From: a virus
Direction: 5' to 3' (one strand)
Virus record (IMG/VR): IMGVR_UViG_3300020474_002475
Coordinates: 53,940 to 117,939 of that record
DNA length: 64,000 nucleotides
Positions 2,110-60,076 of this stretch are shown here, piece by piece. Each line of letters starts with the position of its first letter. The first letter of the stretch is position 1. A program made the translations under genes and the position numbers. The notes below the pieces were generated by a model. That model was not told the DNA's origin. It did no database searches and worked only from the letters and a program-made list of their open reading frames with translations.

Positions 2110-2112
2110 TAG

Positions 2113-9143: not shown

Positions 9144-11014
9144 AAAATTATATTCCATTACATGTTCACAGTCATTATTCTCTATTAGATGGCTTATCTA
9201 AGCCCGAACAAATAGCAAATAGATGCAATAAGATTGGAGTAAATAGCTGTGCTATTACAGACCATGGCTCTATCTCCGGTGCAGTACAAATGTATTCAGC
9301 ACTTAAAGCTAAAAATATAAAGCCTATATTAGGCTGTGAACTGTATTTGGCGTTTAACGACTCCTGTATAAAAACAAAAGAGAATATAAAATTAACTCAC
9401 TTTCTTGTTTTGGCCAAGAACTTAGAAGGTTGGAAAAATTTAATAAAAATAGTTTCTACGTCCAACAGCGAAGAAAACTACTACAGAAAACCTAGACTTT
9501 CTATAGATAAACTTAAAGAACTAGTTACTGGCAAAAATTTAATTAGTTTTTGTGGTCACATGGGATCTTATTTGCCAGATTTAATAGAACAGCATCCAGA
9601 TAATTATAAAAAACATTGCCTAAATTTTATAGACGAGATGAAAGATATTTTTGGTAAAGAAAATTTCTTTTTAGAATCTCAGCTTATGGACAAAGAGTAT
9701 ATGCCTAAGCAGATAGAGCTTTCTGATATAATGAGAGACCTATCGTCTTTATCAAATACCAAAGTCTTAGCGACCCCCGATGCTCATTACGCAGAGCAAG
9801 AGGATGCTATAGATCAAAGAATTCTATTATGCAATAATATTAAAACAACCCTCACTAATATTAACAAAAAAATTATTAATGAAGAAAGTGTTCCTTTTGA
9901 TTGTTTCTTTAAGTCTGATAAGTATTATATTTTATCTCCAGAAGAGATGAATGAATTACATAAAGAAGAAGAAATAGAAAACACACAACTGGTAGATAGT
10001 ATGTGTGAAGAGTATGATATTTTAAATAAGCCCTTATTGCCTCCATTTAGATGTCCTAATGGTCAAAATCCAGATGAGTATTTAAGACAATTATGTAGAA
10101 ATGGATGGAAAGAAAAAATAGCAAATAATATACCAAAAGAAAAACATGAAATGTATACTGATAGAATTAAAAAAGAATTAGAAGTTTTACAAGGTGCTGA
10201 CTTGTCTAGTTACTTTTTGATAGTGTCTGATATAGTAAATCATGTCAGGTCCAATGGCTGGCTTCCTGGTCCAGGCAGAGGCTCGGCTGCTGGGTGCTTG
10301 GTGTCATATTTAATTGGTATTACATCTATTGATCCTATACAATACGGATTGATTTTTGAAAGATTTTATAATTCTGGCAGAAATACAGAAGGTAGAGTTT
10401 CTATGCCAGATATCGATGTAGACGTACCTATTAATAAAAGAGAAAACATCATTTCATATATTCGACAAAGATATGGTAGTGACAAAGTTTCTCAGATGAT
10501 TACTTTTAATACCATGAAAGGTCGTGGCGCATTAAAAGAAGTTCTGCGTGTTTATGGCAATATCAGTTTTGACGAAATGAATCAAATTACTAAATTTATT
10601 CCTGATGAGGCCAAAATAGCAGATGAACTACAAGAAATGAAAGCAGATCATGGGGAAGCATCAATTATTAGATGGGCATTAGAAAACAATGCAGATAAAT
10701 TAAAAGATTGGTGCCACATTTCACAAGATGGCAAAAACAGATTGTCAGGACCACTTGCCAAAAGGTTTGAGCAGGCTATTAGATTAGAGGGCACTAAATC
10801 AAACCAGTCTAAGCATGCCGCCGGTGTAGTTATTAGTAGTCACAATTTGAGTGATATATGTCCGATGATTTACGATACTAAAAACAAAACCACTATAGCG
10901 GGTATGGAGATGCAAGATTTAGAATCCATAGGTATAATCAAATTTGATATTTTGGGAGTAGCTATGCTAGATAAAGTAATGTCCATATCCGATATTTTAT
11001 TAAATGGAGAATAA
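9140..11014 (+). CDS. DNA polymerase III alpha, N-terminal half (PHP and palm)
   Basis: This 624-residue protein covers the first half of a bacterial-type family C replicative polymerase. The N-terminal PHP domain keeps most metal ligands: HVHSHYS (H8, H10), TDHGS, GCELYL, CGHMG and TPDAHY (residues 8-216). The palm includes GPGRGSAAG at about 377-385, PDIDVD at 423-428 and KFDILG with D603, so all three catalytic aspartates are on this half. It stops about 20 residues after the third aspartate; the fingers and later domains are encoded at 11888-13513. No intein-like sequence follows, so the two halves presumably assemble non-covalently. The start overlaps the nuclease stop as ATGA. Confidence 0.92.
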   Translation: MKNYIPLHVHSHYSLLDGLSKPEQIANRCNKIGVNSCAITDHGSISGAVQMYSALKAKNIKPILGCELYLAFNDSCIKTKENIKLTHFLVLAKNLEGWKNLIKIVSTSNSEENYYRKPRLSIDKLKELVTGKNLISFCGHMGSYLPDLIEQHPDNYKKHCLNFIDEMKDIFGKENFFLESQLMDKEYMPKQIELSDIMRDLSSLSNTKVLATPDAHYAEQEDAIDQRILLCNNIKTTLTNINKKIINEESVPFDCFFKSDKYYILSPEEMNELHKEEEIENTQLVDSMCEEYDILNKPLLPPFRCPNGQNPDEYLRQLCRNGWKEKIANNIPKEKHEMYTDRIKKELEVLQGADLSSYFLIVSDIVNHVRSNGWLPGPGRGSAAGCLVSYLIGITSIDPIQYGLIFERFYNSGRNTEGRVSMPDIDVDVPINKRENIISYIRQRYGSDKVSQMITFNTMKGRGALKEVLRVYGNISFDEMNQITKFIPDEAKIADELQEMKADHGEASIIRWALENNADKLKDWCHISQDGKNRLSGPLAKRFEQAIRLEGTKSNQSKHAAGVVISSHNLSDICPMIYDTKNKTTIAGMEMQDLESIGIIKFDILGVAMLDKVMSISDILLNGE

Positions 11015-11198: not shown

Positions 11199-11895
11199 TA
11201 GGAATAAGATTTGTGTATTTGACTTGGAAACTGACGGCGTCAATCCAGAAGTTTGCAGTCCTGTACAAATTGCTGCGGTTATTGTGGATCCTTTGAAATT
11301 AGAAATCGTACCAGACTCCGAGTTTAATATTACTCTTAAGCCGGAGTCCCTGGAACAAAATCCTGAATATTGCTATGATGATTCTGATGTTTTAGATTTT
11401 CATGCAAAAGTTAGAGGGGTAAGCAAGGCTAAGATTTTAGAATCTTGGAAGAAATACCAAAAACAGGATCAAGCATGGAAGATGCTTACTAGCTATTTAC
11501 AAATGTATCATACTAGATCAACTAAAAAGAATTGTTTTAGTGCTCCGATTGCTGCTGGTTATAATATTAATAAATTTGATTTACCAATTATCAACAGACT
11601 TAGCAGTAAATATAAAACAGTAAACAAAGAAGGAAAGACCGATTTGTTTTATCCCAGAGATGTTTTAGATATAATGAATGTAATATTTTATTGGTTCGAA
11701 AACAATAATGAACTAAAAAGTTATACATTAGATAATCTGAGAGACTATTTAGGCTTATCAAAAGAAAATGCTCATGACGCACTAAAAGATGTGCAAGATA
11801 CTGCTCAAATAATGATAAGGTTTATGAAACTGTTTAGAAGTATGTCGCCAAAAATTAAATTTAAGGATTCATTTAATAGTACTGCAAATGTCTGA
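11194..11895 (+). CDS. DnaQ-type 3'-5' proofreading exonuclease, proposed AUU start
   Basis: A TTG at 11224 is the first conventional start but falls inside the first exonuclease motif (FDLETDG) and would delete its first catalytic aspartate. The open frame begins at 11185 and holds no ATG, GTG or TTG before the motif; ATT at 11194 has a good GAGGTG site and overlaps the previous stop as ATTAA. With that start the protein has 233 residues, beginning MNRNKICVFDLETDG. DEDDh catalytic residues: D10 and E12 (Exo I), D129 in GYNINKFD (Exo II), H194 and D199 in HDALKDVQD (Exo III). It removes misincorporated 3' nucleotides. The gene lies between the two halves of the polymerase it probably serves. 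Confidence 0.85.
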   Translation: MNRNKICVFDLETDGVNPEVCSPVQIAAVIVDPLKLEIVPDSEFNITLKPESLEQNPEYCYDDSDVLDFHAKVRGVSKAKILESWKKYQKQDQAWKMLTSYLQMYHTRSTKKNCFSAPIAAGYNINKFDLPIINRLSSKYKTVNKEGKTDLFYPRDVLDIMNVIFYWFENNNELKSYTLDNLRDYLGLSKENAHDALKDVQDTAQIMIRFMKLFRSMSPKIKFKDSFNSTANV

Positions 11896-13513
11896 ATATT
11901 ACACTTTTGATTGTGGTTGTAAATTTAAAATACTTGGGAATAGTAAAGAATTTCCTAGTATAGATTTTAAACCGACTTTAGATAATTTAAATTTAGAATG
12001 TTCTAAAACTTGGGACTTAATATCTTCTGGCAATACCAAAGGATGTTTTCAATTAGAGTCTAGACTTGGTCAAACCATGTCAAAAAAACTTAAACCCAGA
12101 AGTATTGAACATTTGTCTGGATTAATCAGTATTCTTCGTCCAGGATGTCTTGAAGCAGTTAGGGATGGTAAAACTGTATCTAATCATTATATAGACAAGA
12201 AGAATGATCAAGAAACTGTAGATTATTATCATCCTGTTTTAAAAGAATGTCTTGAGAAAAGCTATGGCGAAATGATCTATCAAGAACAAGCTATGGAAAT
12301 TGCAAGAGTAGTTTCTGGATTTAATCTGGAAGAAGCAGACATATTAAGAAAAGCAATTGGTAAGAAAAAAGCGGATTTGATGTCTCAGGTAAAGACTTCA
12401 TTTATGGCAGGTGCAACCAAAATGGGTTTAGTAAATAAAGAAACCGCTGAAGAAATTTTTGGTTGGATTGAAAAGAGTCAAAGATATTCTTTTAATAAAA
12501 GCCATGCCGTTAGCTACGCTATGAACGCATATCTCTCTGCATACTCTAAGGCTCACTTCCCCAGAGTATTCTTTGCTTCATATCTTAAATTCGCTAAAGA
12601 TAAAATAGACCCTCAACAAGAAATAAAAGAGCTGGTACGTAATGCTAACGAAATGGATATAACCATCCATACTCCCGATATTAGAGAGCTAAATGAACTC
12701 TTTGCAATTAGACAAGGTAAAATATATTTTGGACTAACCGATATAAAAGGTTTAGGTCAATCTGTATTTAAAAAATTATTAAAGATTGTTGAAAATGATA
12801 ATATAGATATCGGCAAATTATCATGGTATCAAATGCTATATAAGATATTATGTAATATAAATAGCACTGCTACCAAAGCCCTTATTGCATCAGGAGCATT
12901 AGATTATTTCAAAAAAACTCGCACAGAAATGCTATTTGAGTATGATATATTTACATCTCTTACTAAGAAGGAAATCGAAAAAGCAGGAGATATTATAGAA
13001 AACGGAGCAGTTCCTTTAATCAGCATATTAACAGAATTATTAACTAAAAGAGTTAATATAAAAAGACAAGCTATAATAAATAATCTTATAGAAACTATCA
13101 AGCACCCCCCTTATTCTCTTATTGATAAAATAGAATGGCTATCAGATTCAGAAAATACTTTGTTAGGAACATCGATAACTTGCTGTAAATTAGACTCATA
13201 TAATATAGATATGACTAATATGAACTGTAAAGACTTCAAGAAAACATATAAGGTAGAAGATATCATATTGGCTGCCGAAGTGGTTGGGGTTAATGTAACC
13301 AAAACTAAAAATGGTAAAAACCCAGGTGCTGAAATGGCATTTGTTACAGGAGAAGATCAATACGGGATGTTAGATTCAATTATTATGTTTCCAGAAACAT
13401 GGGAAAAATACAGACCTCACGTTTTTGATGGTAATGTTTTAATATTCACGGGCAAAAAGTCAAAAGCAAAAGACAGTCTAATAGTAGAAAAATGCTTTGT
13501 TCCTAAGTCTTGA
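11888..13513 (+). CDS. DNA polymerase III alpha, C-terminal half (fingers to OB fold)
   Basis: This 541-residue protein continues family C polymerase from where 9140-11014 stops. After a unique Cys-containing head (MSEYYTFDCGCKFKI) it shows GCFQLESRL near residue 53, SGLISILRPGCLEAVRDGK, YGEMIYQEQAMEIARVVSGF, ADILRKAIGKKK and SFNKSHAVSYA, which are all well-known DnaE fingers motifs. It then has a DIKGLGQSV helix-hairpin-helix-like piece and a C-terminal OB fold (about 445-535: VEDIILAAEVVGVNVT to LIFTGKK). No catalytic aspartate of the palm is here. No intein sequence is seen at the N-terminus. The start overlaps the exonuclease by 8 bases. Its stop lies in the -35 box of the ssb promoter. 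Confidence 0.92.
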   Translation: MSEYYTFDCGCKFKILGNSKEFPSIDFKPTLDNLNLECSKTWDLISSGNTKGCFQLESRLGQTMSKKLKPRSIEHLSGLISILRPGCLEAVRDGKTVSNHYIDKKNDQETVDYYHPVLKECLEKSYGEMIYQEQAMEIARVVSGFNLEEADILRKAIGKKKADLMSQVKTSFMAGATKMGLVNKETAEEIFGWIEKSQRYSFNKSHAVSYAMNAYLSAYSKAHFPRVFFASYLKFAKDKIDPQQEIKELVRNANEMDITIHTPDIRELNELFAIRQGKIYFGLTDIKGLGQSVFKKLLKIVENDNIDIGKLSWYQMLYKILCNINSTATKALIASGALDYFKKTRTEMLFEYDIFTSLTKKEIEKAGDIIENGAVPLISILTELLTKRVNIKRQAIINNLIETIKHPPYSLIDKIEWLSDSENTLLGTSITCCKLDSYNIDMTNMNCKDFKKTYKVEDIILAAEVVGVNVTKTKNGKNPGAEMAFVTGEDQYGMLDSIIMFPETWEKYRPHVFDGNVLIFTGKKSKAKDSLIVEKCFVPKS

Positions 13514-22116: not shown

Positions 22117-24426
22117 TTACGCAGAATTTGGGTCTATACCAGAATAAATTGGCTGAAAATCGCCTTCGCCAGTAATTGTATTATCTTTTGAGTAGTAGCC
22201 TATATCTACAAGGTTTGCTACAGTGACATTAGATAGTATGGAATTTTTTCTATATGTTGTATTCATAATATCTTTAATGCCGACATAAGGAGTGTCAACA
22301 CTACAATTTAATGGTGTAAAGCATTCTCCGTCTGTTAAATAATTGTCTTCCCAAAAACTTGGAACATCATTAAAGTTGTTAGTGCTAGTAACGCCACTTG
22401 TCTGTTCTATAGGAATATATTTTCTGGTATATCCACCAGTAACACCATGCGCTACTCTATTATATTCAATGCTTGTCTTACTATAAAAAGCTTGATCTAA
22501 GAAATAATTTGATACTACATTATTATCTCTACTCCATGATGTACTGCCAAAGCCAAGAGCCTGTCCTAATGCGCGAGTAAAAACGTTAACCCAATCTGCT
22601 CTAGAATAAGTAGGGTTTGCGGTACTTCGGTATCCATATCTTCTATTGATGAAAAGATTAAATGACGTAGGGATTCTAAGAGAATCAATTGTAGCAAACT
22701 GTCTGCATTCTTGATCAACGTCCCTAGCTTTAATGCTATTTCCAAAAGCTGCTTTTTCTAATTTTAAACCTTTCCAGCTGGTTCGAAAATTTACACTACT
22801 TTCATACTGAAGCTTGCACGCTTCATATCTTGACTTATCTTTTACTTCATATCTGTAGCCATCATGAGCATCTGTATCCGTTACTTTGTGAAACTCAACC
22901 AAGCTTAGATGTTTATCCCATCTGTCGGCAGCTTCATTTAAAATACCAATCCAGTATTGATCATTAAGGATATCAAAACTATGTCTGTCAAATAAACTTA
23001 CGTCGGTAAGATTTATATATGGGCCATTACTATATCTATCTATATATGCTATTCTGGAAGGAAGAACATTAGTTCTAGTGGCATGTTTTCTGTATACATT
23101 AACTCCACCTTCTTTACCATAATATGCTGCTTTATACCATTCGTTTTCATTCGGTATAAAATATCTAGCAAAATCTGTTCTTGTTAGAGTCTGTAAAGGA
23201 TTACTTAAATCATAAGCTCCTTTATTAGTATTCGTTGTGTCGGTAGAGGTGCATCTATTATGCAACCAATTGGAATATCGTGCTGCTTGAAGCCATGTAA
23301 TACCAACAACAGGTTTGTTGTCTTGGTTTACTACAGGAATATACTTATACTCTATTACTTTTCCGCTATACGTTCTGCCAGTTGCTTCCCTTACAATACC
23401 GTGGCTCATATTAAGCTGTTTCCTATTACTCGCTGGCGTATAATATACTTCAGAATCGTTAGCATATTTAGCAACCTCGTTTAAATATGCACAATATTCA
23501 CTATTAGTAACAACATATTTGCCAATATAGTAATTGTAATTAACACGACCATATCCTGGTGAAAAACCATCAGGATTATTACCGCTAGAATCAATTAAAA
23601 CCATATTTTTTAAATTCAATGTATTGTCATCTGAAACTGTAATAGATAGACCAGTGCCTCCAGCTATTGGAGCTGCGTCCACAACTACTCTGTTATATGC
23701 TACCCCACTAATGGTTGTATAACTAGTAGACAAAGTTTGTACTTTAGTATTATCTTTGAATAATGTAGAATTTTTAATGTCCATCCCAGGTGCAACTGTG
23801 ATTTCACCCAATGATATTTGACCGGATGGAATATTGACTGTGGTATTACCGCTAGTCATTAATACTCCTGTAAGATTAAATACTCTAGATGCTGCAGCCA
23901 GCCTAAAGCCTACAGAATCTGATGGAGAATTAGGAACTGAATACTGTAACGGTGATTCTTTATTTATGTCTCCACTACTAGAAACATAAGAACCTCCTCT
24001 ATTAGAATTACCATAGCCAAAATTTTGACTTGGAGGAATAAAGACGGGTGTTACTGTAGGAGGTCTGATAGGTTGGTCTGGTGGTGGCGGAGGACCTACA
24101 GGCACTCCAGAAGCAAAATTAAATTGACGTTCTATTGGGGCGTCAGATACTTGACGGTTTGCCGGAATAAAAATCTCAGACCCTGTAGGAGTAACAATAG
24201 GTTTAAAAGTATCATTAGCTGAAAACAATACCTTTTTTTCTATATGTTCAGAAACCCCACCTGTTTGATCGTATGTACCAAAAAATGAAGGAGATCCGTT
24301 TGTTCCGACACTAGTGATCAAAATGTTCGATGAATATGGGCCTGGAGCGCCCGTAGCATCACGCAAACCCGAAGGAAAAGGAGATGTAGGGTGACCATAA
24401 TTAGCAGTATTAATATTGTAGCTCAT
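22117..24426 (-). CDS. Virion-type protein: permuted FGE fold plus degenerate metallopeptidase
   Basis: This 769-residue protein has modules in this order. Residues 30-180 carry the piece that is normally C-terminal in formylglycine-generating-enzyme (FGE, PF03781-type) domains: TSVGTNGSPSFFGTYDQTG, then NRGGSYVSS, then VGFRLAA. After a beta-rich insert (about 185-290), residues 295-465 carry the piece that is normally N-terminal: YGRVNYNYYIGKYVVTNSEY, PVVGITWLQAARYSNWLHN, YFIPNENEWYKAAYYG. The halves are therefore swapped. The C-terminus (about 485-765) resembles leishmanolysin-type metallopeptidases (IPIEQTSG, FWEDNYLTDGECFTPLN, SNVTVANLVDIGY), but the zinc motif is replaced by RALGQALGFG. 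It is probably an adhesin or fibre part rather than an enzyme. The start ATG at 24426 lies 19 bases after the previous gene. Confidence 0.75.
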   Translation of the reverse strand: MSYNINTANYGHPTSPFPSGLRDATGAPGPYSSNILITSVGTNGSPSFFGTYDQTGGVSEHIEKKVLFSANDTFKPIVTPTGSEIFIPANRQVSDAPIERQFNFASGVPVGPPPPPDQPIRPPTVTPVFIPPSQNFGYGNSNRGGSYVSSSGDINKESPLQYSVPNSPSDSVGFRLAAASRVFNLTGVLMTSGNTTVNIPSGQISLGEITVAPGMDIKNSTLFKDNTKVQTLSTSYTTISGVAYNRVVVDAAPIAGGTGLSITVSDDNTLNLKNMVLIDSSGNNPDGFSPGYGRVNYNYYIGKYVVTNSEYCAYLNEVAKYANDSEVYYTPASNRKQLNMSHGIVREATGRTYSGKVIEYKYIPVVNQDNKPVVGITWLQAARYSNWLHNRCTSTDTTNTNKGAYDLSNPLQTLTRTDFARYFIPNENEWYKAAYYGKEGGVNVYRKHATRTNVLPSRIAYIDRYSNGPYINLTDVSLFDRHSFDILNDQYWIGILNEAADRWDKHLSLVEFHKVTDTDAHDGYRYEVKDKSRYEACKLQYESSVNFRTSWKGLKLEKAAFGNSIKARDVDQECRQFATIDSLRIPTSFNLFINRRYGYRSTANPTYSRADWVNVFTRALGQALGFGSTSWSRDNNVVSNYFLDQAFYSKTSIEYNRVAHGVTGGYTRKYIPIEQTSGVTSTNNFNDVPSFWEDNYLTDGECFTPLNCSVDTPYVGIKDIMNTTYRKNSILSNVTVANLVDIGYYSKDNTITGEGDFQPIYSGIDPNSA

Positions 24427-41541: not shown

Positions 41542-44500
41542 CTAAAACAACCCATCTCCATCAGGGCCAACAGAAACAGCTGTAGGAGCATCATTAGATT
41601 GTGTCGCATAAGTATAATAATCTGTACCATTATAGTATGCAGATTTTACCCATTCGTCTTCATCTGGTAAGTAATAATCTGAATTAGCATTTGTGCTAAA
41701 TGTGCCAGTAACTGCGCCATTCAGTGTATATGCCCCATTTTCTGTTGTAGTAAGGTCTTGAGATCCTGTGGGTGCTCCATTATCTAGCCAGTTACAATAT
41801 CTTGCAGCACTATGCCAACTTATATAATTAACAGGATTATTGAATTTGTCTGGTCTACAAACATAAGTATAAGAACCTGAAGAACCGAATCTTAATATGC
41901 CACCAGTTGTCTGACCGGCCATATTGGTATTATATAATGCGTAGGTGTCTGTACTAGCAATACTGTTTAAAAAGTCTACATATTGTGAATTTGTAATTAA
42001 GAATTTAGAAATCATATAAAGATAATCTATTCGACCAATTCCACTAGAATGATTAGCGTTCGACCTATCTATAACGTTTACTAGAGGAATTCTATTACTA
42101 GATGTTCCAGTTTTAGCAGCAATTCTTAAGCCCACATAACTTTTTGGTGCTGTAGGACTATTCAAAGTTCTGCTACTGATAGCGAGATCTAATACATTAC
42201 CGGATCCATACCAACCTCCTCTGGTCACTATATTTCCACTACTGTCTGATGTGCTTGTCCACTCTCTAACTAAACCAGATTGATCAAATGTTCCATAATA
42301 ACTAGGACCACCATTTGTCCCAACATTAGTTACGTTTGCTCCGCTAAACATGGCTCTATTTGTTCTGTTTACAGGAGTAATGGTTGGTGTTACGGTTGGC
42401 GTAATAGTTGGTGTTATACTAGGAGTTATGCTAATAGTAGGAGTAATAGTTGGGGTCAAACTAATAGTTGGTGTGATACTAGGTGTTATAGAAGGTGTTA
42501 CAGAAATTGTCGGAGTAATCGTAGGAGTTAACGAAATGGTTGGGGTTACGCTTATGGTTGGTGTGGTTGTTGGTGTTGCAGTCACGGTTGTTGTTGGAGT
42601 ATTTGTAATAGTAGGAGTTACAGATATAGTAGGAGTTAATGTTGGGGTTAGACTAAGTGTTGGAGTTAATGTAGGAGTTACTGTAATTGTTGGCGTTATG
42701 GTCGGAGTAACAGTATTAGTTACGGTAATAGTAGGAGTTAAAGAAGGAGTAACAGAAACAGTTGGTGTTATAGTTGCCGTTACACTAGGAGTAATACTAG
42801 GCGTAATACTAGGCGTAGGTGTTTGTGTTGGAGTAGGAGTAACCGTAGGTCTAAATGTAGTAACGCAATTTTTTACTAACTGCATTCCTCCATGACCATT
42901 CGAAATAACTAAAAGCCTACCGTCTTCTGATAGAGAAAGATGTTTTGCTTGATAATCTGAATTATTTATGGTTGTGGAAACAGATGGGGCAGTAGGACTA
43001 GAAAGACTATAAGAAGATATGCCAAAATGAGAATTAGCAACAAACAAATTATTATTATTCCAATCTACAGTATTATAAACAGAATTACCAGAAGTGGATA
43101 AAGTTGATTGTATAGTAAATCCTGCCGTATTATTGGCTATAGTGACATCACCCGCTGTGTTGGTAATATAAAGATAGCTATTTGTGGCAGCTATAGATGT
43201 AGGATATAGATAATCATAAGTGGCATTATCTCCTAGAATCTCTGTTGTTGTAACATTACTACTAGTTAAATCAGAAAGAGTAATTCTGTAAAGATTTAAG
43301 CTGGTTGAGCTCCTCATTGCAATATAAACATAATCATCATCATAAATAGATAATGAATTTTTATTATAAGTATTGAATGCAATGTTAACGTTTGGCAACG
43401 AATCATTTAAAACAGTATTATCACTAATGTCCAAAGCTATAAATATACCCTGTTTAGAAATTATGTAAGCATGACTTCTAGTGTCTAATATTTGTATATC
43501 GGCTACGCCTTCGCTAGCGTTTGTTAATATAGATGACAAGCTAATGTCAGTAACAGAAGTTGGATTTAAAGGATCTGATATATTATATACGCTAATGGTT
43601 TTTCCATTGGCTATATACAACCTTTGTCTTTCATGAGATATTGCAATTTTAGATATATTTTGATTTTTTAATATATACTTTTTAACAAAAGGAGTATCTA
43701 AATTAGAAATGTCTACAACCTTAACACCATGATATCCGTCCGCAACATATAATACGGTACTTGCTTGATTAATCAAACACATTTCAGTATCATAAAGAGC
43801 TAAATCAGAATATATATTATTGCAGTTTTTTAATGTTGGAGTAGGCGTCAAAGTTGGTGTTGGACTAGGAGAAACACTTGGCGTAATACTAGGAGTAGTA
43901 GTAACGGTAGGAGTAATACTAATCGTAGGAGTAATAGAAGGAGTAATACTTGGTGTGACACTTGTGGTTGGTGTGATTATTGGAGTGTTGGTTAATGTAA
44001 TAGTGGGTGTAATAGTTGGTGTTGGTGTTGGTGTCGGGCTTGCTGCGAAAAAATCAATATTGATATTAACACAATACAAATAAGCATTATCATTGTCATA
44101 ATTATCTGAATTTGGCAATAGCCACAATCTACCATTCGTATTATCTGGTACACTAAAAGCTTTACTGGATCCTGGGCTGGATGGAGAAACATCTATATCA
44201 AATCTGTTAGCTATGGTTGGATCAACACCTAATGGTAATATTGTAGCATATAATTTATTTATGTTACTATCTGGTAGCCCTTGAACACTAGAGCAAGTAT
44301 CTGTTGAATCCCCAAATAAAGAGATGTTATCCTCTCCACTAATAACGTCTCCGTCTTCAGTAAGCAAAGAAGAACTTTCATTACAAATACAACCTCTAGT
44401 ACTTATAAATACAATATCTTTTTGATGAACATATAAGCCAGTATCTGTCCATACTAATGGGTTGTTGTTTCTGTTGTTTTTAACAGATATTTCTCCGGAC

Positions 44501-44991
44501 AAACACCTTCTAATAAAAGGCTCAGATCTACAATTAGCGATATTGTTTGGTATGTCTGGTAAATTTGTGTCTACTGCGGTACTAGGAGTAGGTGTTGGAG
44601 TAGGTGTGGGACTAGGACTTGTGTTGGTGCTTGATTCTGATTGTATATTGATATCTCCACCCATACCACTGTGATTACCACAATAATAATATATATTGTC
44701 AGGAGTAGATGAGTCTATAGTAATTTCTACGTAAGATCCAGCTGTGCCAGGAATTCCCACACTATTAACGCCATTTACATATTCTGTTCCGGAATTATGA
44801 GTGCCATTACTGGTTGTAGAAAACTTTAAAGGATGATTAGAATTGCTGCTGTCAGACAAATCAAATTTATAGGTATTACCTGCTACAAACGTTAAGTCTG
44901 GACTAACTGCTTCGTTAATATGGTATTTGTTACCATATCCAAATTTGTTGTTAGCGGATAAAACTATAATATTATATAATATATTTGCCAT
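41542..44991 (-). CDS. Modular adhesin: cupredoxin, beta-propeller and permuted FGE domain
   Basis: This 1149-residue protein has modules in this order. Residues 1-118 form a cupredoxin domain ([31 protein letters not shown]) with ligands H53, C104, H107 and M110 of a type 1 copper site. A Thr/Pro block follows, then a Cys-containing beta domain to about 315, a second Thr/Pro block, and an LVIVD-type beta-propeller at about 390-715 ([44 protein letters not shown]). A long Thr/Pro block precedes an FGE-fold domain whose C-terminal half ([33 protein letters not shown]; about 905-960) stands before its N-terminal half ([49 protein letters not shown]; 985-1149). The protein ends abruptly at the permutation point. 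It probably binds host or virion surfaces. Confidence 0.8.
42370..42860 (-). repeat. Long Thr-Pro coding repeat
   Basis: About 490 bases of imperfect tandem units code for TPT(I/V)TP, TPSITPS and similar, linking the beta-propeller to the permuted FGE domain of gene 41542-44991. The + strand reads as GTTGG(T/A)GT(T/A)A-like units. Confidence 0.9.
43835..44045 (-). repeat. Thr-Pro coding repeat
   Basis: A second Thr/Pro block in gene 41542-44991 separates a Cys-containing beta domain from the propeller. A shorter block at about 44585-44635 follows the cupredoxin domain. Confidence 0.85.
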
Positions 44992-50383: not shown

Positions 50384-53300
50384 TTATTGAGCTGGCTCTT
50401 CCTTTCTCAGAAGCATTAAATGGTCTAGCCCATAGCTAATATCTACAAAATCATTAATATTTGCACTTCCTTCAGCAAGCCAAGGGATTCCCATAGCTTT
50501 ATCTACAGCAGCACAAGAATTTCTATATCCTTTATCTAAACCAAAATGAATAAACCGACCGCCAGTATCAATCAATCCAATTCCATCTTTACCTGCTGCC
50601 ACATTCTCCGATCTCAAATAGTAATATGTATATGCAATACTGGTGGCTTCAGTACCTGAATAGGATTTAGTATATCCTGATGGCGTGCTAACATTTGCTT
50701 TTAATGTTCCATCACTATTGACTTCTACAGATAAAATACGAGTGTGTTGTTTGAAAGCCTTAAATACAACCGCATAATTATTATTGATAGTATTGTTGCC
50801 AATAACAGTAACTGTTTTAGCACTAGCATTAACAGCGATGACCTGTCCTTTCTGGCTGCCCGTACCCCAAGCTCTCGTAGGACCTATTTGCAGCCACATT
50901 CCCGACTCTACACCTTCAACACTGTTCAGAGTAATTGTCGTTCTATTATTAACAGAATCATAGACAGAATTTGCAGCAGTTGTTGTGTATAAGAAATTGA
51001 AATTTATAAAATATCCTTTTTTAACTTTTGATGAATATGAACTAGGTATATTGTCTATAAACGATTGATTTTTTACAATACTTCCTCTAAATCCCGTATA
51101 GAAATAAGGAACATAAACAGGAGCAATCATCATTCTACCATCAGCAACATACGGACCAACAGTACCAGTTGAATTATGAGTAGAACTTAATAAATTACCT
51201 GCTTGACCATAAGATCTATCTCCCCAAACCCAAACTCTATTTAAAACATCAACATAACCACAATTAGATTTGGATCTTACTGGAGGCTTATTGGCATCTT
51301 CTCCAGGTTGACAAGCTCTAGTTCTACCATTGGTAGTGCATGGGTATTGATATACATAATGATCAGCACAATTAGATGCAAAAATAAATTTAGCTGGATA
51401 CGCAGATAAATTGGATGTATTCAAAACATTGAAACCATATCTGGCATGATCATTTTTATTTGTATTTGGGTTCAAACCAAGACCCAACTGACCATCAGTA
51501 TTGTCTCCAGTTACTATGATATTTCCGTCTGTATCCATTGCCATAGTGTGATATGGCCCACAAGCAACTTGAGCTATTCTAGCATTTTGATTACTGTTAA
51601 TATATCTAAAAGACGATACGTATGGCACAGAACTAGGTAAGCCTAATTGACCTCTAGCATTGGATCCCATCCCATACATTTTGGAATGTCTTACGATTAT
51701 CACATGGTCTGCTCCAGCAGATATTGAATTAATATTGGTAGGAGGATAAGTATTATTAGGAGCTATAGATTTTTCTAGAATTAATTCTTTTTCATATTTT
51801 ACACATTGATATTGATGACGGGCCGAAGCAGAACTGTCAAAACCAAAAGTATAAAGTTCTCCCCTATCGTCTAGTAAAAATACTGTATATGTCGCTTTAT
51901 CTGCTAAATTAGCTCCTTGATGATTGTATGTCATTATTGCAGCATCTACAAAACTAACATTTACAGGATTATATGTGCTTCCTGATAGAGTATATGCTTG
52001 TATTTTGCGCATATGATCTAACTCATCAGAACCACCACCTGTTGCAGCTGTTTTATATCTAATTATCACTACTCCACTGCCGCCAGATGCTCCAGTGTAA
52101 GCAGAGGATCCACCTCCACCACCACCAGTATTAGCAATGCCATCGGTACCAAGATGTGGAGAGGCATTACTTGCTCCTCCGTCGCCACCACCTCCGTTGC
52201 CACCAAGACCTCTATTAGCAGTAGTATATCCTTGTCTTTCCTCTGGACCTTTACCGGAAGAACCACCGCCACCTCCAGCATAATAAGAATTTGTTCCACT
52301 TATATCAACTTGTAAACCAACTCCTCCATTTGGGTCTGTTCCATAATCGTCGGAACCATTCATATTAGGAGAGTAGCCACCTGTTCCAGCCGCACCAGCT
52401 CCACCACCACCTCCTGTATTTCTAGGATCATTGGTGTTAAGGTTTCCAGTTCTACCTCCAGAATTACCCTGACCAGAAGTTCCCGCACCAGCTGTTGGAT
52501 TATTACCCCTAGAATTATAGGCAGAACCTCCACCAGAACCACCAGAGCCACCATTTCTAGTGTGACCACCATTAGCACTTCCTCCTCTACCACCACCCAA
52601 AGCTGTTAGGGAAACAGAAGGGCCTATAATAGAAGAAGAACCTCCTTGAGTGGCGTTTGACGCTGGACCGGTACCAGCACCTGAACCTCCGGCACCAACA
52701 GTGACATTATATGTGCCACCAGTCATTGTTTGGTTTGTCTCATAAATTAAACCACCACCACCGCCACCACCACCTCTGTTTGCACCACCACCTCCACCAC
52801 CGCCAACAATCAAAATATCAAACTCTGCGTTAGCAGGAGCGTTGTTAATATTAAATACTCCGTTTTGTTTGAAGGTATGTATAGTATATTGTCCAGAAGT
52901 AGTTATTTCGCCACCAGTAGCACTCAAAGATACTAAAGAACCAGCGTCAAATGGTCCATAATTACTATTACCCGTATAATAAGCATCGCCATCACTATCT
53001 ATGGTAATAGTTTGGTATTTACCAGCAATAACTTTTATAGCACTATCGTATTTTGTACTGGTTAAAGCTGGTGGGGTGCCTGATCGAACCATCTTCTTTG
53101 CGATAGAAGTGCTTTGATTCATTAAGCCAATCGAACGATTTTGTGTACATGGTGCATTAGTAGGGTCCGTAGGTCTGCCTAGTCCGCCAGCACTTCCGCT
53201 ACTTATTGATGTAATATCTCTAGGAGAATGATATCCCGCTCCAAGCAGAGTATACTCAAATCGGTCTGAATCGGTATATATTATAGGCGAAGACATCTTA

Positions 53301-56300
53301 TATACTTGTCTATAAGCATTGGCAATTTGTGGTACGCTGCTACTCCTTCTTGGTTGAACTTCTAGAAATATATCTTTCCTATCAGATGCTAAATATGCTG
53401 TAGGTAGTGTTGAGTAAACAGGACTTGTAATATCTGCACTACTAGATGCAGTAGCTGCGCATCCATTAGCTATAAGAATATTTTGATACGATATAGCATC
53501 GGTTCTGTTAGAGAATACTCTATTTAAAGTGCTGTCTGTTGGACAACGAACATTAAAACCTAAAGGAGAAAAATAATCAGGAATAGAGGTAGTAGTTGAA
53601 AGTAAAAATTCTTTAGTGAAGCCATCCTCATTTGTTTTTAATGGACAAACGGCAACGTTATTTAATTGTACAAAATTTCTTAGTTGTCCAGAACCTCCTC
53701 TTCTCCCAAGATCTGCCGTAGTATCAAAAGAAAGTTTTATATTAGAGTTCTCTCTAAAGTAGTGTTCAAAATTAATAATTTTTTGATTCCATACTATCTT
53801 TAAATAGGACAATGTAAAATCATTCTGAGTTCTAGCTAAGTATGTTACGTCATTTGCCGTATTATGGAACGTCCCAGTTTTAAATCCTCCTGTATTATAG
53901 TCTGAAGCATAAAATTGATCATATCTATCAGTATTGTTTTGTCTGTGTATAGCAATTTTCCTTAGCCCTGCACTACCTCTAATGGAAACTGGATTATCAT
54001 CACTACCTTTTATTACAGACGGCTTGCCTTTATCTTTTACGTCGACAACATATACATTGCCTGAACTATCTCCGACATACAACTCGTCCGCAGAATTAGG
54101 ATATATGATCGCAGGTGGTGGCGGAGGAGGAGGAGGACCAGCAGGAGTAGGTGTGGGTGTCGGGGTAGGTGTTACAGATGGGGCAACTGCTACCGTAAAA
54201 TTCGCACCATACAAAATAGGTGCTCTATAGCCTTGACTATTGGCATCTATCTGTGTAGCAGTACTGCTGAATGTTTTGGTTAATGATCCTCCTGTAGTAT
54301 TCTGGAACCAGCCCTGACCGACTCTTGCTTCAATCCAACTGTATGATGGATCATTGACATTATTTAAAGTAAATCCAGATGTAATTCTATTTTCTTGTCT
54401 ACCTATTGGTAAGTTGAAGGACTTATCGGGCATAGTAACAACCAAATTCTGCGTGCTGCTACTATTTAAGCTAGGAATAAGATTGAAACCATGACCTACC
54501 AGTACAGAAAAAGTACCAAACTGAGTAGATCTCATTCCGTTTGAAGCACTAGAAAACTTAATATCTCCAACACTACCAGTTGGAATTTCATCTGATACAT
54601 ATACTTCCCATCTGCCCCAATAGTTACCAAATCCGGTACCAAGAGGAGCCCCTAAAGGCTGTTCTCCATATCTGATACAATTATATTCAGTACCATTAAC
54701 ATCTATAGTTGCTGAAGTACGTACCTCACCTGCAGGAAAATATGTAACCAGACCCCACAAAAAGATACGACGGTTAGGAGATGTAGGTCCTAAAGACTGA
54801 GAGAAAAATGTTTTTACACCAGACTTGCCAAGATAATGAGGGTCTAATGTTCCTAAATATTGTACTGTTCCATTGGTTCCTATAATTGGGGGAGGAGGAC
54901 TTACTGGCGGCGGACTTACTGGCGGCGGACTTACTGGCGGCGGACTTACTGGTGGAGGACTTACTGGCGGAGGACTTACTGGGGGAGGACTTGTAGTAGA
55001 GCATACAGCATTGGTTCGTGTCTTGGTACCCTGTGTGTGTGTCGTGCCTGATATAACACTAGATGGAGTAATTTCAATAGTATATCTATGAGTAGACTGA
55101 AATGGAGGGAATGGACCAGCATAACCATCACCATTCTGTTGAGCTCCCCACGTAATCGAATTAATAGTACCTCCTGAAATTTGTCCACTAGATACAGAGT
55201 TGGCGTTGCCGTTAATATTTATAATATTCCAATGTATACTATCACCAGCGTCAATATCTTTCATAACTAATGAAAAAGTCGTATTACTACTATTACAACT
55301 TCCACCAAAAGTAGTGTTCCAGGTAACAGTAGGAGAGAGATTGCTTCCGCAGCCATAAAAAGGATGGTTATTAACTACATTTAAATTGAACTCAACATTA
55401 CTAACAACAACAGAATTTGTAACTGGAGATGGAGTACTACTAGTAAGTCTAGCTAAAGCCCCTGCAACATTTAATCTACCTTCACTAACAACAGGTCTGT
55501 GTTCTTCCGCGCCCGGTACTAGAGTATGTCTAAAAGCATCAGTCTGAGTTGCCGATTGAATGATAGCATTACGAATATCACTAGCGCTAGCATTTGGTTG
55601 AGCAGCAGCAAGTAAAGAAACAGCACCAGCAACCATTGGGGCTGCCATACTGGTTCCGCTCATATTCCTATAATTTGTATTACTGGTACTACCCAAAGAC
55701 ATAATAGTATGACCAGGAGCAGCAATTTGAACGGACTGCTGTCCATAATTTGAAAAACTTGCACCCTTACCCTCATCTGTCATAGCCGCTACAGCAATAC
55801 CAACAATATCAGGAAAATTATTCTCATTAGCAAACGCTGCAGGCCAGTAGCTCTGCGGGTAATAGCCGACCTGTCCGGTACTGGGGTCAACGTATCTATA
55901 ATCAGGAATATTATCAATATCTACGTTGTCATTACCAGCAGAAAATACATATACAATACCTTGGGCACTACCAGCAGCAAAAGCTCTTCTTTTATTGCTG
56001 TTTTGATTGTGATAAAAGAGTCCCTGTCCACCAAGGCTCAAGTTAACAGCTCTTACATTCACTCCAGCCTGTTTCTGTGCTGTAATGTAATTAATCATCA
56101 GTGCTTGGTCGGCATGTTTGATTAGCATACATCTTGGGCAGGGTGTTCCATCACTTGGAGGAGGGTCGCCGGTACAATAACATTTTGTGACCCCATTCGA
56201 GGTATATGTGCCAGAAAAAACTCTAAACCCTCGACATGTCATAATGCTGACTTGCTGACAAACTCCCGTTACTCCTCTACCATTAGATCCTGTTCCTCCA

Positions 56301-57016
56301 ATAATACCGGCGCAATGTGAACCATGATCTAAGACAGCTTGACGAATAAGCGGGTCTGCATGACTCCCACAAAACTGACCTCCATACTGATTGGGGACTT
56401 CATCATAAGTATCGTCAGGGCCTGCTCCGGTAGCACTAACACCGATTCCATGAACATCATTTGTGAAAGGGTCTCCGCCACTTGTGCGGCCAGGGTTAGG
56501 ATTTGTCCATAGATTATCAACAATATCTTCATGAGTAAGACGAGTACCAGTATCTAATACTGCGCATACAACATTACGATCACCTACCGATGCATTTGCC
56601 CACACAGATTCTACATTTATATGCCAAGGATTATTAGAATTTAAGCCCCATTGTTCATTCCATTTAGGATCATTTGTAAGAGTTTGTATTGGTTGTTCTG
56701 GCAACTCCAAAGCTATAGGGGGAGGTTCGGCAGCAAAATGTTTTACATTTTTGTTTTTGTCTAAGGTGTTGTCAGTATCTATTTTAGTCTGTACAACAAG
56801 TAGAGCTCCTGGCATCCCAAGCGCTAGTGTAACTACATATTCTGGACCAAATAATGCATGTACATCATCAACAGAATTCAAATTAGCAACACACTCTTCT
56901 GTTAAAGTAACATCAAATTCTATAGCATTAGCATGATTAGACAAAAGTAGTGATGGATTTTCTTGTTGAAAATCTCTAAACCACAACATGGAAGGTTTGT
57001 TATAATCTATATTCAT
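50384..57016 (-). CDS. Giant virion subtilase with PEBP, RCC1 and Gly-rich domains
   Basis: This 2210-residue protein has the following order. A propeptide-like domain (1-105) contains LFGPEYVVTLALGMPGALLVV. A peptidase S8 domain follows at about 115-520 with an intact triad: D155 in VLDTGT, H231 in DHGSHCAG, S455 in MSGTSMAAP; the oxyanion Asn is N361 in SAGND. A PEBP-type domain lies at about 535-670 (LSPTVTW, DAGDSIHWNIININ, GYAGPFPPF, HRYTIEI). SPPPV repeats occupy about 675-710, followed by a beta domain, a short Thr/Pro plus polyPro linker, more propeller-like sequence, a glycine-rich adhesin domain (about 1372-1648), and RCC1-type repeats (VACGPYHTMAMDTDGNIIVTGDN, VDVLNRVWVWGDRSYGQAGN). 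No secretion signal is visible, so it is probably a virion-borne protease and adhesin that could digest host surface proteins or process virion proteins. Confidence 0.85.
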   Translation of the reverse strand: MNIDYNKPSMLWFRDFQQENPSLLLSNHANAIEFDVTLTEECVANLNSVDDVHALFGPEYVVTLALGMPGALLVVQTKIDTDNTLDKNKNVKHFAAEPPPIALELPEQPIQTLTNDPKWNEQWGLNSNNPWHINVESVWANASVGDRNVVCAVLDTGTRLTHEDIVDNLWTNPNPGRTSGGDPFTNDVHGIGVSATGAGPDDTYDEVPNQYGGQFCGSHADPLIRQAVLDHGSHCAGIIGGTGSNGRGVTGVCQQVSIMTCRGFRVFSGTYTSNGVTKCYCTGDPPPSDGTPCPRCMLIKHADQALMINYITAQKQAGVNVRAVNLSLGGQGLFYHNQNSNKRRAFAAGSAQGIVYVFSAGNDNVDIDNIPDYRYVDPSTGQVGYYPQSYWPAAFANENNFPDIVGIAVAAMTDEGKGASFSNYGQQSVQIAAPGHTIMSLGSTSNTNYRNMSGTSMAAPMVAGAVSLLAAAQPNASASDIRNAIIQSATQTDAFRHTLVPGAEEHRPVVSEGRLNVAGALARLTSSTPSPVTNSVVVSNVEFNLNVVNNHPFYGCGSNLSPTVTWNTTFGGSCNSSNTTFSLVMKDIDAGDSIHWNIININGNANSVSSGQISGGTINSITWGAQQNGDGYAGPFPPFQSTHRYTIEITPSSVISGTTHTQGTKTRTNAVCSTTSPPPVSPPPVSPPPVSPPPVSPPPVSPPPVSPPPPIIGTNGTVQYLGTLDPHYLGKSGVKTFFSQSLGPTSPNRRIFLWGLVTYFPAGEVRTSATIDVNGTEYNCIRYGEQPLGAPLGTGFGNYWGRWEVYVSDEIPTGSVGDIKFSSASNGMRSTQFGTFSVLVGHGFNLIPSLNSSSTQNLVVTMPDKSFNLPIGRQENRITSGFTLNNVNDPSYSWIEARVGQGWFQNTTGGSLTKTFSSTATQIDANSQGYRAPILYGANFTVAVAPSVTPTPTPTPTPAGPPPPPPPPAIIYPNSADELYVGDSSGNVYVVDVKDKGKPSVIKGSDDNPVSIRGSAGLRKIAIHRQNNTDRYDQFYASDYNTGGFKTGTFHNTANDVTYLARTQNDFTLSYLKIVWNQKIINFEHYFRENSNIKLSFDTTADLGRRGGSGQLRNFVQLNNVAVCPLKTNEDGFTKEFLLSTTTSIPDYFSPLGFNVRCPTDSTLNRVFSNRTDAISYQNILIANGCAATASSSADITSPVYSTLPTAYLASDRKDIFLEVQPRRSSSVPQIANAYRQVYKMSSPIIYTDSDRFEYTLLGAGYHSPRDITSISSGSAGGLGRPTDPTNAPCTQNRSIGLMNQSTSIAKKMVRSGTPPALTSTKYDSAIKVIAGKYQTITIDSDGDAYYTGNSNYGPFDAGSLVSLSATGGEITTSGQYTIHTFKQNGVFNINNAPANAEFDILIVGGGGGGGANRGGGGGGGGLIYETNQTMTGGTYNVTVGAGGSGAGTGPASNATQGGSSSIIGPSVSLTALGGGRGGSANGGHTRNGGSGGSGGGSAYNSRGNNPTAGAGTSGQGNSGGRTGNLNTNDPRNTGGGGGAGAAGTGGYSPNMNGSDDYGTDPNGGVGLQVDISGTNSYYAGGGGGSSGKGPEERQGYTTANRGLGGNGGGGDGGASNASPHLGTDGIANTGGGGGGSSAYTGASGGSGVVIIRYKTAATGGGSDELDHMRKIQAYTLSGSTYNPVNVSFVDAAIMTYNHQGANLADKATYTVFLLDDRGELYTFGFDSSASARHQYQCVKYEKELILEKSIAPNNTYPPTNINSISAGADHVIIVRHSKMYGMGSNARGQLGLPSSVPYVSSFRYINSNQNARIAQVACGPYHTMAMDTDGNIIVTGDNTDGQLGLGLNPNTNKNDHARYGFNVLNTSNLSAYPAKFIFASNCADHYVYQYPCTTNGRTRACQPGEDANKPPVRSKSNCGYVDVLNRVWVWGDRSYGQAGNLLSSTHNSTGTVGPYVADGRMMIAPVYVPYFYTGFRGSIVKNQSFIDNIPSSYSSKVKKGYFINFNFLYTTTAANSVYDSVNNRTTITLNSVEGVESGMWLQIGPTRAWGTGSQKGQVIAVNASAKTVTVIGNNTINNNYAVVFKAFKQHTRILSVEVNSDGTLKANVSTPSGYTKSYSGTEATSIAYTYYYLRSENVAAGKDGIGLIDTGGRFIHFGLDKGYRNSCAAVDKAMGIPWLAEGSANINDFVDISYGLDHLMLLRKEEPAQ
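52070..52830 (-). other. Glycine-rich domain coding segment
   Basis: This codes for a run of GGGGGG blocks within gene 50384-57016, framed by the usual head (YTIHTFKQNGVFNI...EFDILIVGGGG) and foot (GASGGSGVVIIRY) of glycine-rich phage/bacterial adhesin domains that form polyglycine helices. It interrupts the RCC1-type repeat region. Confidence 0.75.
54885..54990 (-). repeat. 15-base tandem repeat coding SPPPV
   Basis: About seven near-identical 15-base units (CTTACTGGCGGCGGA and variants on the + strand) code for a (SPPPV)n linker between the PEBP domain and the next beta domain of gene 50384-57016. Confidence 0.85.
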
Positions 57017-57019
57017 AAT

Positions 57020-60000
57020 TTATATTCTTTTTGGTTTTGGTACAATGCTATACGATCCCAAGCGACGGTCTGCAGTAATACTAGAAGCGCCACCTAATGG
57101 TAAATAAGACACTTGTATAGGATTATCAGCATCAGAGACATCCAAAATGTACAATCCAATACTAGATGAAACATATAATAGATCTTTATTATTAGGATCT
57201 ACGCCTATATCATATAAAAGAGTACTTCTTCTATTTGTATTAGTATCAAAATTGCCTAAAGTTGTTTGAGATCTAAAGACGGGTGCAGATCTATTAGAAA
57301 TATCATATACAACAAGTATGCCTTCGTTAGTAGTAACATATAGATAATTATCATCGTTAGAAAGCTGACACTCTATCATTCGACTATAAGGGAAAGCAGT
57401 AACTCCATCACCGACAATTCTACCTGTTGGCCAATCAGGATGATTATATTTTAGGCCAGATAAGGTTGTCATGCTATACGTAGAAATATCAACCTTTAAA
57501 ACAAACATACCATAATTTATATCTATACAATACAAATATATGTTTCCAGCTTTATCGTCTATAACGCGCACATCTCTAACTGAATTAAGCTCAACAGTTG
57601 ATAGATCAGATTCTATTTCAGCCACAGACTTTCTCTTAATGTTATGCAAACCAGAGAACAGCCAGGTGTTGAGATTAGTAGCATCATATTTTATTAGCTG
57701 GATACCATGAGTATGATTAGCCAAAACAATTAAATCTAAACTAGGAATAAGATCCATTCCATAAGCGTATGTATTAAATTTGGCAGAAGCTAAATGTCTT
57801 GAGTAATACAAATTTTGATAATGGGCGTTAACCAAACCCAGTCTACTATCTGCTTGTAAAATTACATTACCATATTTCCCAGAACTAGAATCCCAGTCTT
57901 TATGATTTCTTAGAATCAAAATATCTCCACCCCTAAAACTGTTAGCGGTATCCAACTCTGAAACAGAAGAAATTTCGAAAGGAGCTGTAGGACTTAATGT
58001 TGGTGTTGCTGTTGGGGTGTTTGTTACAGTTGGTGTTACTGTTATTGTGGGCGTTGGAGTATATGTAACGGTAGGAGTAATAGTTGGTGTTGCTGTAACG
58101 GTAGGTGTGATGGTTGGCGTAACGCTAGAAGTAACAGTAATGGTTGGGGTGACACTAGGAGTAACAGAAATTGTTGGGGTAATTGTAGGGGTTACACTAA
58201 TAGTAGGAGTTACAGAAGGCGTTACAGAAATAGTAGGTGTAATACTAGGAGTAATAGATGGAGTAACAGAAATTGTAGGAGTGATAGATGGGGTAACAGA
58301 TATAGTTGGGGTTATTGAAGGAGTAGGAGTAATCGTTGGAGTTATAGAAATTGTTGGAGTAACTGTAGGAGTAATACTTGGAGTAGGAGTAAGTGTAGGC
58401 GTTGGAGTTAGTGTTGGGGTTGCAGTAGTTGTCGGAGTAATACTAGGCGTTGGTGTTACAGTTACCGACGGGGTAGGAGTAAGTGTAGGAGTAGGGGTAC
58501 AAGTAGGAGTAGGAGCATTTATAGGAACAGTATCAGGAAAAGAATATTTTACGATACCATTAATCATACAACAAACTTTTCCTCCTACTTTTACAAATAG
58601 CTGCCTACCAATATTTTCTTCTAAATTAGGTAAATTAAAATCAATATAAAATTCTGAATTAAAAGGACCTTCTGTTGTAATAGCAGTGTTTGGGGTAGGA
58701 CTAGGTGTCGCATTAGGTGTGGGGGTTGGAGTAGGAGTAACAACAGTAACCAGACTGTCATAAGCTGCTTTGGCTTGTAAAATACCTCCTGAAGCAACGC
58801 TATTTTTAACAGAATCTAGAGGTTTAACATTATTTAATATTGCAGTTCTAATTTCTAAAATAGTTTTATTAGGAAAAGCTGCACATAATAAAGCAAAAAC
58901 TCCAGCTACATGAGGAGCTGCCATGCTAGTACCTGATTGTCCAGCATAAGGAATTATTGCTGGATTGCCTGTACGAAGAACAGTACTTAGAATATCTGTG
59001 CCTGGTGCAGATAAATCTACGGTAACAGCACCATAATTACTTCCGGCTGGAGTCCCATCATCTTTAATGTAAGTATGAAGAGCTCCTGTATTAGTATGAT
59101 TAGCTACTACTATAAGACCATCACCCGGTATAGACGCTGGAGTGTAAGGAGTCACATCAATATCAAGAAGATCATTACCTGCAGCAACAACATGCATAAT
59201 ACCTGCTGCTGTAGCTGCCGAAAAAGCCTGAACAATAGAGTTTGGAGGAGTACCAACCCCTCCATAACTATGATTAATGACTCTAACATTATTACCATTA
59301 TTGTTTAAATTAGTAATATAATTTATACAGGTAACCGCATCAATCAAATTTCCGTCTCCATTTTCATCCATAAACCTACAAGCAATTAAATTAGTATTAA
59401 AATTAATACCACTAATGCCATCAGTATTATTACCTAAAGCCCCAATAATACCAGCGACATGTGTACCGTGACCATTAACATCCATAGGATCGCCGGTAGA
59501 AATGCTTTTAGAGCTTTCAACATGGATACCATGTACATCATCAATAAAACCTGAGCCATTATTGTCTATCCCGTCATTAGCAGTTTCTCCAGGATTTACC
59601 CACATATTATTTCGTGATGCAAGACCAGCTATATCTGGATGCAAATAATCTATTCCTGTGTCTACTACAGCGACATCAACGGTTTTGCTACCAGTAAAAC
59701 TATTCCAAACAGATTCTATATCTATACCAAAATTTGGATCATTCAAAGCCCATTGTTGTGAATACAACCTATCATCAGGAGATAGATTGACACTTAATAT
59801 CATATTTGGTTCTACATAATCAATATTTTCATTATTAGATAGTAGCTGTATATCATCTGGTCCTGTTTTTTCAACAGCAACCATACCGGGCAGACCTAGC
59901 CCCTTAATTACAATATATCCGGGCCCTAAAAGATCTTGAATATCTTCTAGAGAACTAACTAGTTTGCAAGCATCTTCTGTTAGTCTTAATACATATTGTT

Positions 60001-60076
60001 TTCCAGACTGTGCTGAAAAAGCTGGTTTTTGTAATTGTTTAAACCATAAAGAGCTTGGCGTGTTATAATTAGACAT
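57020..60076 (-). CDS. Virion subtilase with Thr-Pro linker and beta-propeller
   Basis: This 1018-residue protein is a paralogue of the N-terminal part of 50384-57016: both begin with P-S-x-LWF and have an LGPGYIVIKGLGLPGMVAVE-type propeptide (here 1-95). Peptidase S8 domain at about 105-440: D139 in VVDTGID, H203 in GHGTHVAG, S384 in SGTSMAAP, N301 in AAGND; the triad is intact. A segment NDGIDNNGSGFIDD (168-180) looks like a calcium loop. After the protease come a short and a long Thr/Pro block (about 455-475 and 520-700) and an LVIVD-type propeller (about 715-1018: GMDLIPSLDLIVLANHTHGIQLIKY, LYVTTNEGILVVYDIS, LLYVSSSIGLYILDVSD). It is separated by only 3 bases from the other subtilase gene, so both are likely on one transcript starting at the motif at 60111. 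Confidence 0.85.
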   Translation of the reverse strand: MSNYNTPSSLWFKQLQKPAFSAQSGKQYVLRLTEDACKLVSSLEDIQDLLGPGYIVIKGLGLPGMVAVEKTGPDDIQLLSNNENIDYVEPNMILSVNLSPDDRLYSQQWALNDPNFGIDIESVWNSFTGSKTVDVAVVDTGIDYLHPDIAGLASRNNMWVNPGETANDGIDNNGSGFIDDVHGIHVESSKSISTGDPMDVNGHGTHVAGIIGALGNNTDGISGINFNTNLIACRFMDENGDGNLIDAVTCINYITNLNNNGNNVRVINHSYGGVGTPPNSIVQAFSAATAAGIMHVVAAGNDLLDIDVTPYTPASIPGDGLIVVANHTNTGALHTYIKDDGTPAGSNYGAVTVDLSAPGTDILSTVLRTGNPAIIPYAGQSGTSMAAPHVAGVFALLCAAFPNKTILEIRTAILNNVKPLDSVKNSVASGGILQAKAAYDSLVTVVTPTPTPTPNATPSPTPNTAITTEGPFNSEFYIDFNLPNLEENIGRQLFVKVGGKVCCMINGIVKYSFPDTVPINAPTPTCTPTPTLTPTPSVTVTPTPSITPTTTATPTLTPTPTLTPTPSITPTVTPTISITPTITPTPSITPTISVTPSITPTISVTPSITPSITPTISVTPSVTPTISVTPTITPTISVTPSVTPTITVTSSVTPTITPTVTATPTITPTVTYTPTPTITVTPTVTNTPTATPTLSPTAPFEISSVSELDTANSFRGGDILILRNHKDWDSSSGKYGNVILQADSRLGLVNAHYQNLYYSRHLASAKFNTYAYGMDLIPSLDLIVLANHTHGIQLIKYDATNLNTWLFSGLHNIKRKSVAEIESDLSTVELNSVRDVRVIDDKAGNIYLYCIDINYGMFVLKVDISTYSMTTLSGLKYNHPDWPTGRIVGDGVTAFPYSRMIECQLSNDDNYLYVTTNEGILVVYDISNRSAPVFRSQTTLGNFDTNTNRRSTLLYDIGVDPNNKDLLYVSSSIGLYILDVSDADNPIQVSYLPLGGASSITADRRLGSYSIVPKPKRI
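57985..58515 (-). repeat. Longest Thr-Pro coding repeat
   Basis: About 530 bases of tandem units code for [12 protein letters not shown]-like sequence between the subtilase and propeller domains of gene 57020-60076; a small separate block lies at about 58680-58745. Individual subunits recur almost exactly, which makes the region prone to slippage and to assembly error. Confidence 0.9.

Follow-up and report, generated by a model that had tools for sequence, protein, structure and literature searches.

A predicted circular permutant of the FGE-type fold in tail-fibre-like proteins of large, uncultured phages from one aquatic lineage

The stretch of viral DNA analyzed here, referred to as the window, comprises 64,000 nucleotides of a metagenomic contig (positions 53,940 to 117,939 of IMG/VR record IMGVR_UViG_3300020474_002475). 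All of the FGE-related features described below lie on its minus strand. Open reading frame (ORF) and PHROG matches identify a gene at 41542–44991 that encodes a tail-fibre-like protein of 1149 aa, with a permuted FGE domain at its end. Near the start of the protein, residues 18–124 (44620–44940) match PHROG tail fibre families 30742 (E 1e-15) and 693 (E 2e-15) and form an N-terminal domain common to phage tail fibre proteins. A Thr/Pro-rich linker (aa ~318–388; 43828–44040) is followed by a middle region that is tentatively beta-propeller-like (aa ~405–706; 42874–43779), given weak LVIVD and lactonase matches with E values of 0.09–0.13. A second, long Thr/Pro linker (aa ~713–873; 42373–42855) stands directly before the permuted domain.

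The domain itself occupies aa ~886–1136 (41584–42336), and the stop lies 13 aa further on, so that the range of 41542–42350 given in the original prediction was essentially right. Alignments place its new N-terminal edge at 42337–42384, where a degenerate form of the clade motif N.ANY..adWNG is found. The C-terminal half of the FGE fold comes first (42118–42336; PF03781 model positions 163–254) and ends in VGLRIA. It is joined by a linker (42085–42117), which bridges the former C- and N-termini and is delimited by linker lengths and a rotation scan, to the N-terminal half, which begins with LVNVID (41584–42084; model positions 37–138). The new C-terminal edge (41545–41583) closes with VGPDGDGLF and the stop. 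Together these parts make up a complete FGE domain in the final ~265 aa of the protein, reaching the stop.

A second permuted gene, of 769 aa, is located at 22117–24426 and is recognized both by Pfam (PF03781, 49.3 bits against a cut-off of 23.3) and by profiles of the separate halves (half-HMMs). Its C-half (aa 37–177) is split by an insert of about 80 aa into segments at 24247–24318 and 23896–24003; a further insert of about 95 aa sits in the linker (23608–23895), and the N-half follows at aa 274–456 (23059–23607). As had been proposed, the two copies in the window share both order and break point by Pfam and half-HMMs, and the 41542 copy is fairly called the cleaner of the two because the other carries the two inserts. 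In the downstream part of the 22117 gene, the sequence RALGQALGFGS (22543–22575) tentatively resembles a metallopeptidase motif in which the first His is replaced; it has no Pfam match. Close to the FGE genes are also two large genes with subtilase domains, one at 50384–57016 with additional RCC1-like, glycine-rich, and PBP-like domains, and one at 57020–60076 with additional Thr/Pro linkers.

Several lines of sequence evidence establish the order of the halves. The 41542 gene exceeds the PF03781 (FGE-sulfatase) cut-off, at 43.1 versus 23.3 bits, and a six-frame search places model positions 163–254 upstream of 37–138 within one open frame without stops. Half-HMMs that were derived from the window and then refined by iteration on related loci likewise find the C-half (E 2e-24) before the N-half (E 3e-62). 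A rotation scan matched a profile built from 78 permuted domains to one built from 54 canonical domains, with cuts and rotations at 25 positions. Without rotation, the best local alignment spans 172 columns with a score of 524.6. The score peaks at 680 when the cut falls in the linker between the halves, where 257–261 of the 280 columns align, and is lower on either side. Both halves are thus complete, the rotated sequence aligns over its full length, and the N-half to C-half order of PF03781 is not kept, by either model positions or the scan. A sequence profile of the permuted set crosses in the same manner when aligned to the 5aoh structure (CotH/CarF), with query positions 177–260 falling on chain positions 77–161 and 29–92 on 198–263. 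Chance is excluded by the position of the peak at the linker and by the recurrence of this order in more than 80 contigs.

Structure prediction points in the same direction. AlphaFold2 models the permuted domain as a single domain (pLDDT 95.3, pTM 0.94, with the linker block at 95), and a canonical relative is modeled with similar values (pLDDT 94.9, pTM 0.93); the order of helices and strands in the permuted model is a rotation of that in the canonical model. The permuted chain is therefore predicted to form one compact fold in which the old termini are joined by a short loop. Foldseek, whose alignments are sequential, returns 77 PDB matches at E<=1e-3 for the canonical model, including TvpA, CarF, FGE, EgtB, and others, with FGEs matched over their full length. 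For the permuted model it returns none at that threshold and none at full length among PDB entries; its plausible matches are pieces of FGE structures of 61–77 residues at about 2–3 A. A search of BFVD with the permuted model as sole query gave nothing significant. Taken together, Pfam order, half-HMMs, rotation scan, AlphaFold2, and Foldseek bear out the original proposal of a circular permutation, and the confirmed reading, on sequence and modeled structure, is that the window domain represents a genuine circular permutation of the FGE-type (C-type-lectin) fold.

The break point of the clade lies between "..GDG" and "N.ANY", and the window gene retains degenerate remnants on either side. An intact version of this site is preserved in two independent contigs, L113 and L288, from which the original joining residues can be read (for example, GDGLANGSGNYANYAGGASWN). 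The suggestion that YATQSN.APTAV passes directly into NVGTNGGPS does not hold, as ~20–25 residues lie between them in the clade. The L113 domain (3771–4688) is itself rearranged. When the fold is divided into five segments, a to e, it runs c-d-e-a-b, with SPQYWIPSLDEWYKAAF as its first residues and GAISGIVLK as its last, and it carries the old break point intact as YATQSDTAPIPVQASLTGDGLANGSGNYANYAGGASWN. Its counterpart in L288 (3001–3951) is collinear and 61% identical over about 305 aa. In both, the new break falls before YW[IL]PS.DEWYKAA. There are thus two circular permutants in these phages, both with the same kind of C-to-N linker.

Other arrangements are found as well. In L266 (ORF 971–9241, aa 855–1400), a canonical FGE domain (aa 1015–1293) is nested in the N-half of a permuted one; neither this arrangement nor the second permutant featured in the original prediction. 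In L028 (ORF 3181–8556; L067 is from the same contig), a canonical domain stands directly after a permuted one and groups with Planctomycetota sequences, which suggests a recent acquisition from bacteria. Tandem canonical domains with linkers of 11–14 aa occur in both bacteria and viruses.

To follow the spread of the permuted order, viral contigs were scanned four times, with permuted or window-derived queries in three scans and a canonical profile in the fourth, and ORFs were classified locally. The first three scans yielded 76 viral ORFs with a single C-N domain and another 14 with more than one; the fourth yielded 31 N-C ORFs and 14 that contain C-N. With HMMs for the five segments, the order "deabc" is found in 70 viral ORFs and "abcde" in at least 76 genome ORFs, in each case with additional ORFs holding multiples; among the matches listed, no genome ORF has the order "deabc". 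In total, more than 80 viral contigs, including some near-copies, have the permuted order with the same break point, and nearly all close viral relatives of the window domain are permuted. The spread is therefore wider than originally stated. Among the matches listed, every bacterial ORF that contains both halves is N-C and none is permuted. Against 294 Planctomycetota genomes, none reaches E 1e-75 with the permuted profile. Four viral contigs outside that profile have best permuted domains at 1e-107 to 1e-128, matched over full length, and the canonical bacterial domains of six genomes reach at best 8e-72, mainly through the N-half. That the permuted order came from bacteria or a prophage was rejected on the orders of these listed ORFs and the Planctomycetota result. 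Among isolated phages, there is no match to the window domain; partial matches, mainly to the C-half, occur in Microcystis phages alone.

The carriers appear to be related. A DNA polymerase close to that of the window phage is present in 24 of 30 sampled carriers, mostly at 62–82% identity, in a 25th at 48%, and in distant form in two more; only 1 of 10 contigs with canonical domains has a distant match. Terminase matches over the cut-off in four related contigs of about 150–230 kb identify the carriers as tailed phages. No terminase was found in the window's own contig, and PHROGs recognized no structural genes among nine large ORFs scanned in its first 54 kb. The polymerase (phrog_405) comes in two parts, encoded by separate ORFs (9140–11014 and 11888–13513) with small ORFs between them, and in relatives such as G012 and G028 its first part is split further.

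Quick tree searches on rotated sequences, with SH-aLRT support, place the permuted domains on one side of a branch with support of 99, unchanged when the flanks of the break point are removed; a tree of the N-half only retains the branch at 92. A first tree that included long-branch rows (the 22117 copy and tandem viral N-C rows) required two changes of order, and one change suffices without these rows. The lineage-wide state and the branch support favor the earlier suggestion that permutation predates the divergence of the two window genes, with the 22117 copy too long-branched for firm placement. By sequence and model, then, the permutation is shown to be fixed in one lineage of large, uncultured, tailed aquatic phages.

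How might such a domain arise? Natural circular permutation of proteins is a known phenomenon, and duplication followed by trimming is its usual proposed origin. A phage ancestor would have acquired an FGE domain from bacteria and duplicated it in tandem; loss of the outer halves would convert N-C-N-C to C-N, as tandem copies and linker lengths suggest, and the short inter-domain linker would be retained as the new internal loop. In 85 permuted domains this linker measures 8–18 aa, which resembles the linkers of canonical tandems and so fits duplication with end trimming. The second permutant, with its different break point, fits phase-free trimming of tandem arrays. No N-C-N-C intermediate was found on the permuted branch.

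The permuted domain sits at the ends of tail-fibre-like proteins or between their Thr/Pro linkers, where hypervariable loops of the C-half could be presented to host surface ligands. The loops between GNV.EW and GFR share about 22% identity in domains with N-halves at or above 60%, and the scaffold motifs are conserved. These loops are variable in canonical bacterial domains too (entropy 2.88 versus 3.01), so loop variability alone is no sign of host-range selection. Diversification as the target of a diversity-generating retroelement (DGR) was considered and rejected, as no RVT_1 match to a reverse transcriptase is present in the 118 kb contig, which may be a fragment; DGRs thus provide no argument for receptor binding. 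The tail fibre link is provided only by the N-terminal domain of the 41542–44991 protein. Our preferred explanation, to which we assign a probability of roughly 0.7, is a lineage-fixed FGE permutant that originated by tandem duplication and end trimming and serves as a non-enzymatic binding module of tail-fibre-like proteins.

Four alternatives were weighed against this explanation. The window comes from a metagenomic contig, and two partial FGE genes could have been joined by assembly or gene calling, a concern raised with the original prediction. Order, break, and type of linker agree across more than 80 contigs, which come from many samples, and the window's contig has two copies, so such an artefact is extraordinarily improbable; nor do the relatives all go back to one faulty join, since their domains are only 35–51% identical to that of the window, and the many independent contigs rule out misassembly. 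Almost as improbable is an active permuted enzyme, a formylglycine-generating or related oxidase. This idea draws on PF03781 homology and on the FGE enzymes among the sequence-profile matches, but the Cys pair of FGE is absent: after the RGG motif, Cys is missing from 84 of 91 permuted domains, 7 have one, and none has two. Without this paired-cysteine catalytic feature, and with a location in tail-fibre-like proteins that also speaks against catalysis, the domain is, on its sequence, no enzyme.

The original prediction also raised 3D domain swapping, in which each half would pair with the complementary half of a neighboring chain or copy in a fibre trimer. Tail fibre proteins are commonly trimeric, and several proteins carry two or three permuted domains; however, in most proteins there is just one complete domain, the linker is short and varies little, and the monomer is predicted with high confidence to close on itself, linker included, so that swapping is not needed and seems quite improbable. 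The main rival is a structural module for attachment or capping that docks within the virion and binds no receptor. Protein ends, defined as a start no more than 30 aa from that of the protein or an end no more than 20 aa from the stop, hold 53 of the 83 permuted domains in complete ORFs (29 N-terminal, 21 C-terminal, and 3 both), in line with such a role. The other 30 are internal, and such extreme variability of C-half loops characterizes ligand-binding faces more often than surfaces that dock to the virion. We consider docking or capping unlikely, and a binding module borne on tail fibres the most likely role.

A broader reading is that the FGE fold is a phase-free module in this lineage, with at least two permutants and a nested domain, and that a new entry point of the chain re-aims the same binding face, apart from DGR hypervariation. 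We hold this idea tentatively, at slightly below even odds. The FGE/C-type-lectin fold ranks among the principal scaffolds of hypervariable binding proteins, and a lineage-wide permutant together with a second break point indicates that it tolerates new termini at two loops. Natural permutants offer ready-made permuted scaffolds for protein engineering. They also carry a warning for annotation: searches that depend on domain order, and sequential fold searches such as Foldseek, miss the permuted domain. More generally, the phages seem to have borrowed a domain from bacteria and re-wired it as a tail-fibre module of their own, a clear example of how such a domain is rebuilt in phages.

In agreement with the original prediction, no description of a permuted FGE domain was found in the open-access literature searched. 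A comparative survey reported no FGS (FGE-type) domains in jumbo phages (PMC7824862); viral contigs of 200–244 kb carry FGE-type domains here. Among isolated phages, the fold is present in the FGE-like proteins of Microcystis phages LMM01 and MaMV (phrog_18508, "kinase"), the sole detectable relative in the cultured-phage collection. These genes are small, about 180–246 aa, with the recognized C-half toward the gene end and no permuted order seen. Two of them, L285 (MaMV-DL02) and L286 (MaMV-DC), bear the annotation kinase or hypothetical; "kinase", which phrog_18508 is also called, is probably a mis-annotation. The DGR target TvpA of Treponema denticola (PDB 2y3c) has the same fold, is the best PDB match of the canonical relative, and likewise varies most in the C-half loops; its structure is collinear with the canonical model, whereas the window domain is permuted and its contig has yielded no reverse transcriptase. 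The nearest cellular relatives among the matches listed are canonical domains of Planctomycetota and Verrucomicrobiota. Like members of the PF03781 group (SUMF1/EgtB/PvdO/CarF), the window domain matches in both halves and has the same predicted secondary-structure elements; unlike them, it has its halves reversed and its old termini fused, lacks the catalytic Cys pair, and resides in a phage tail-fibre-like context.
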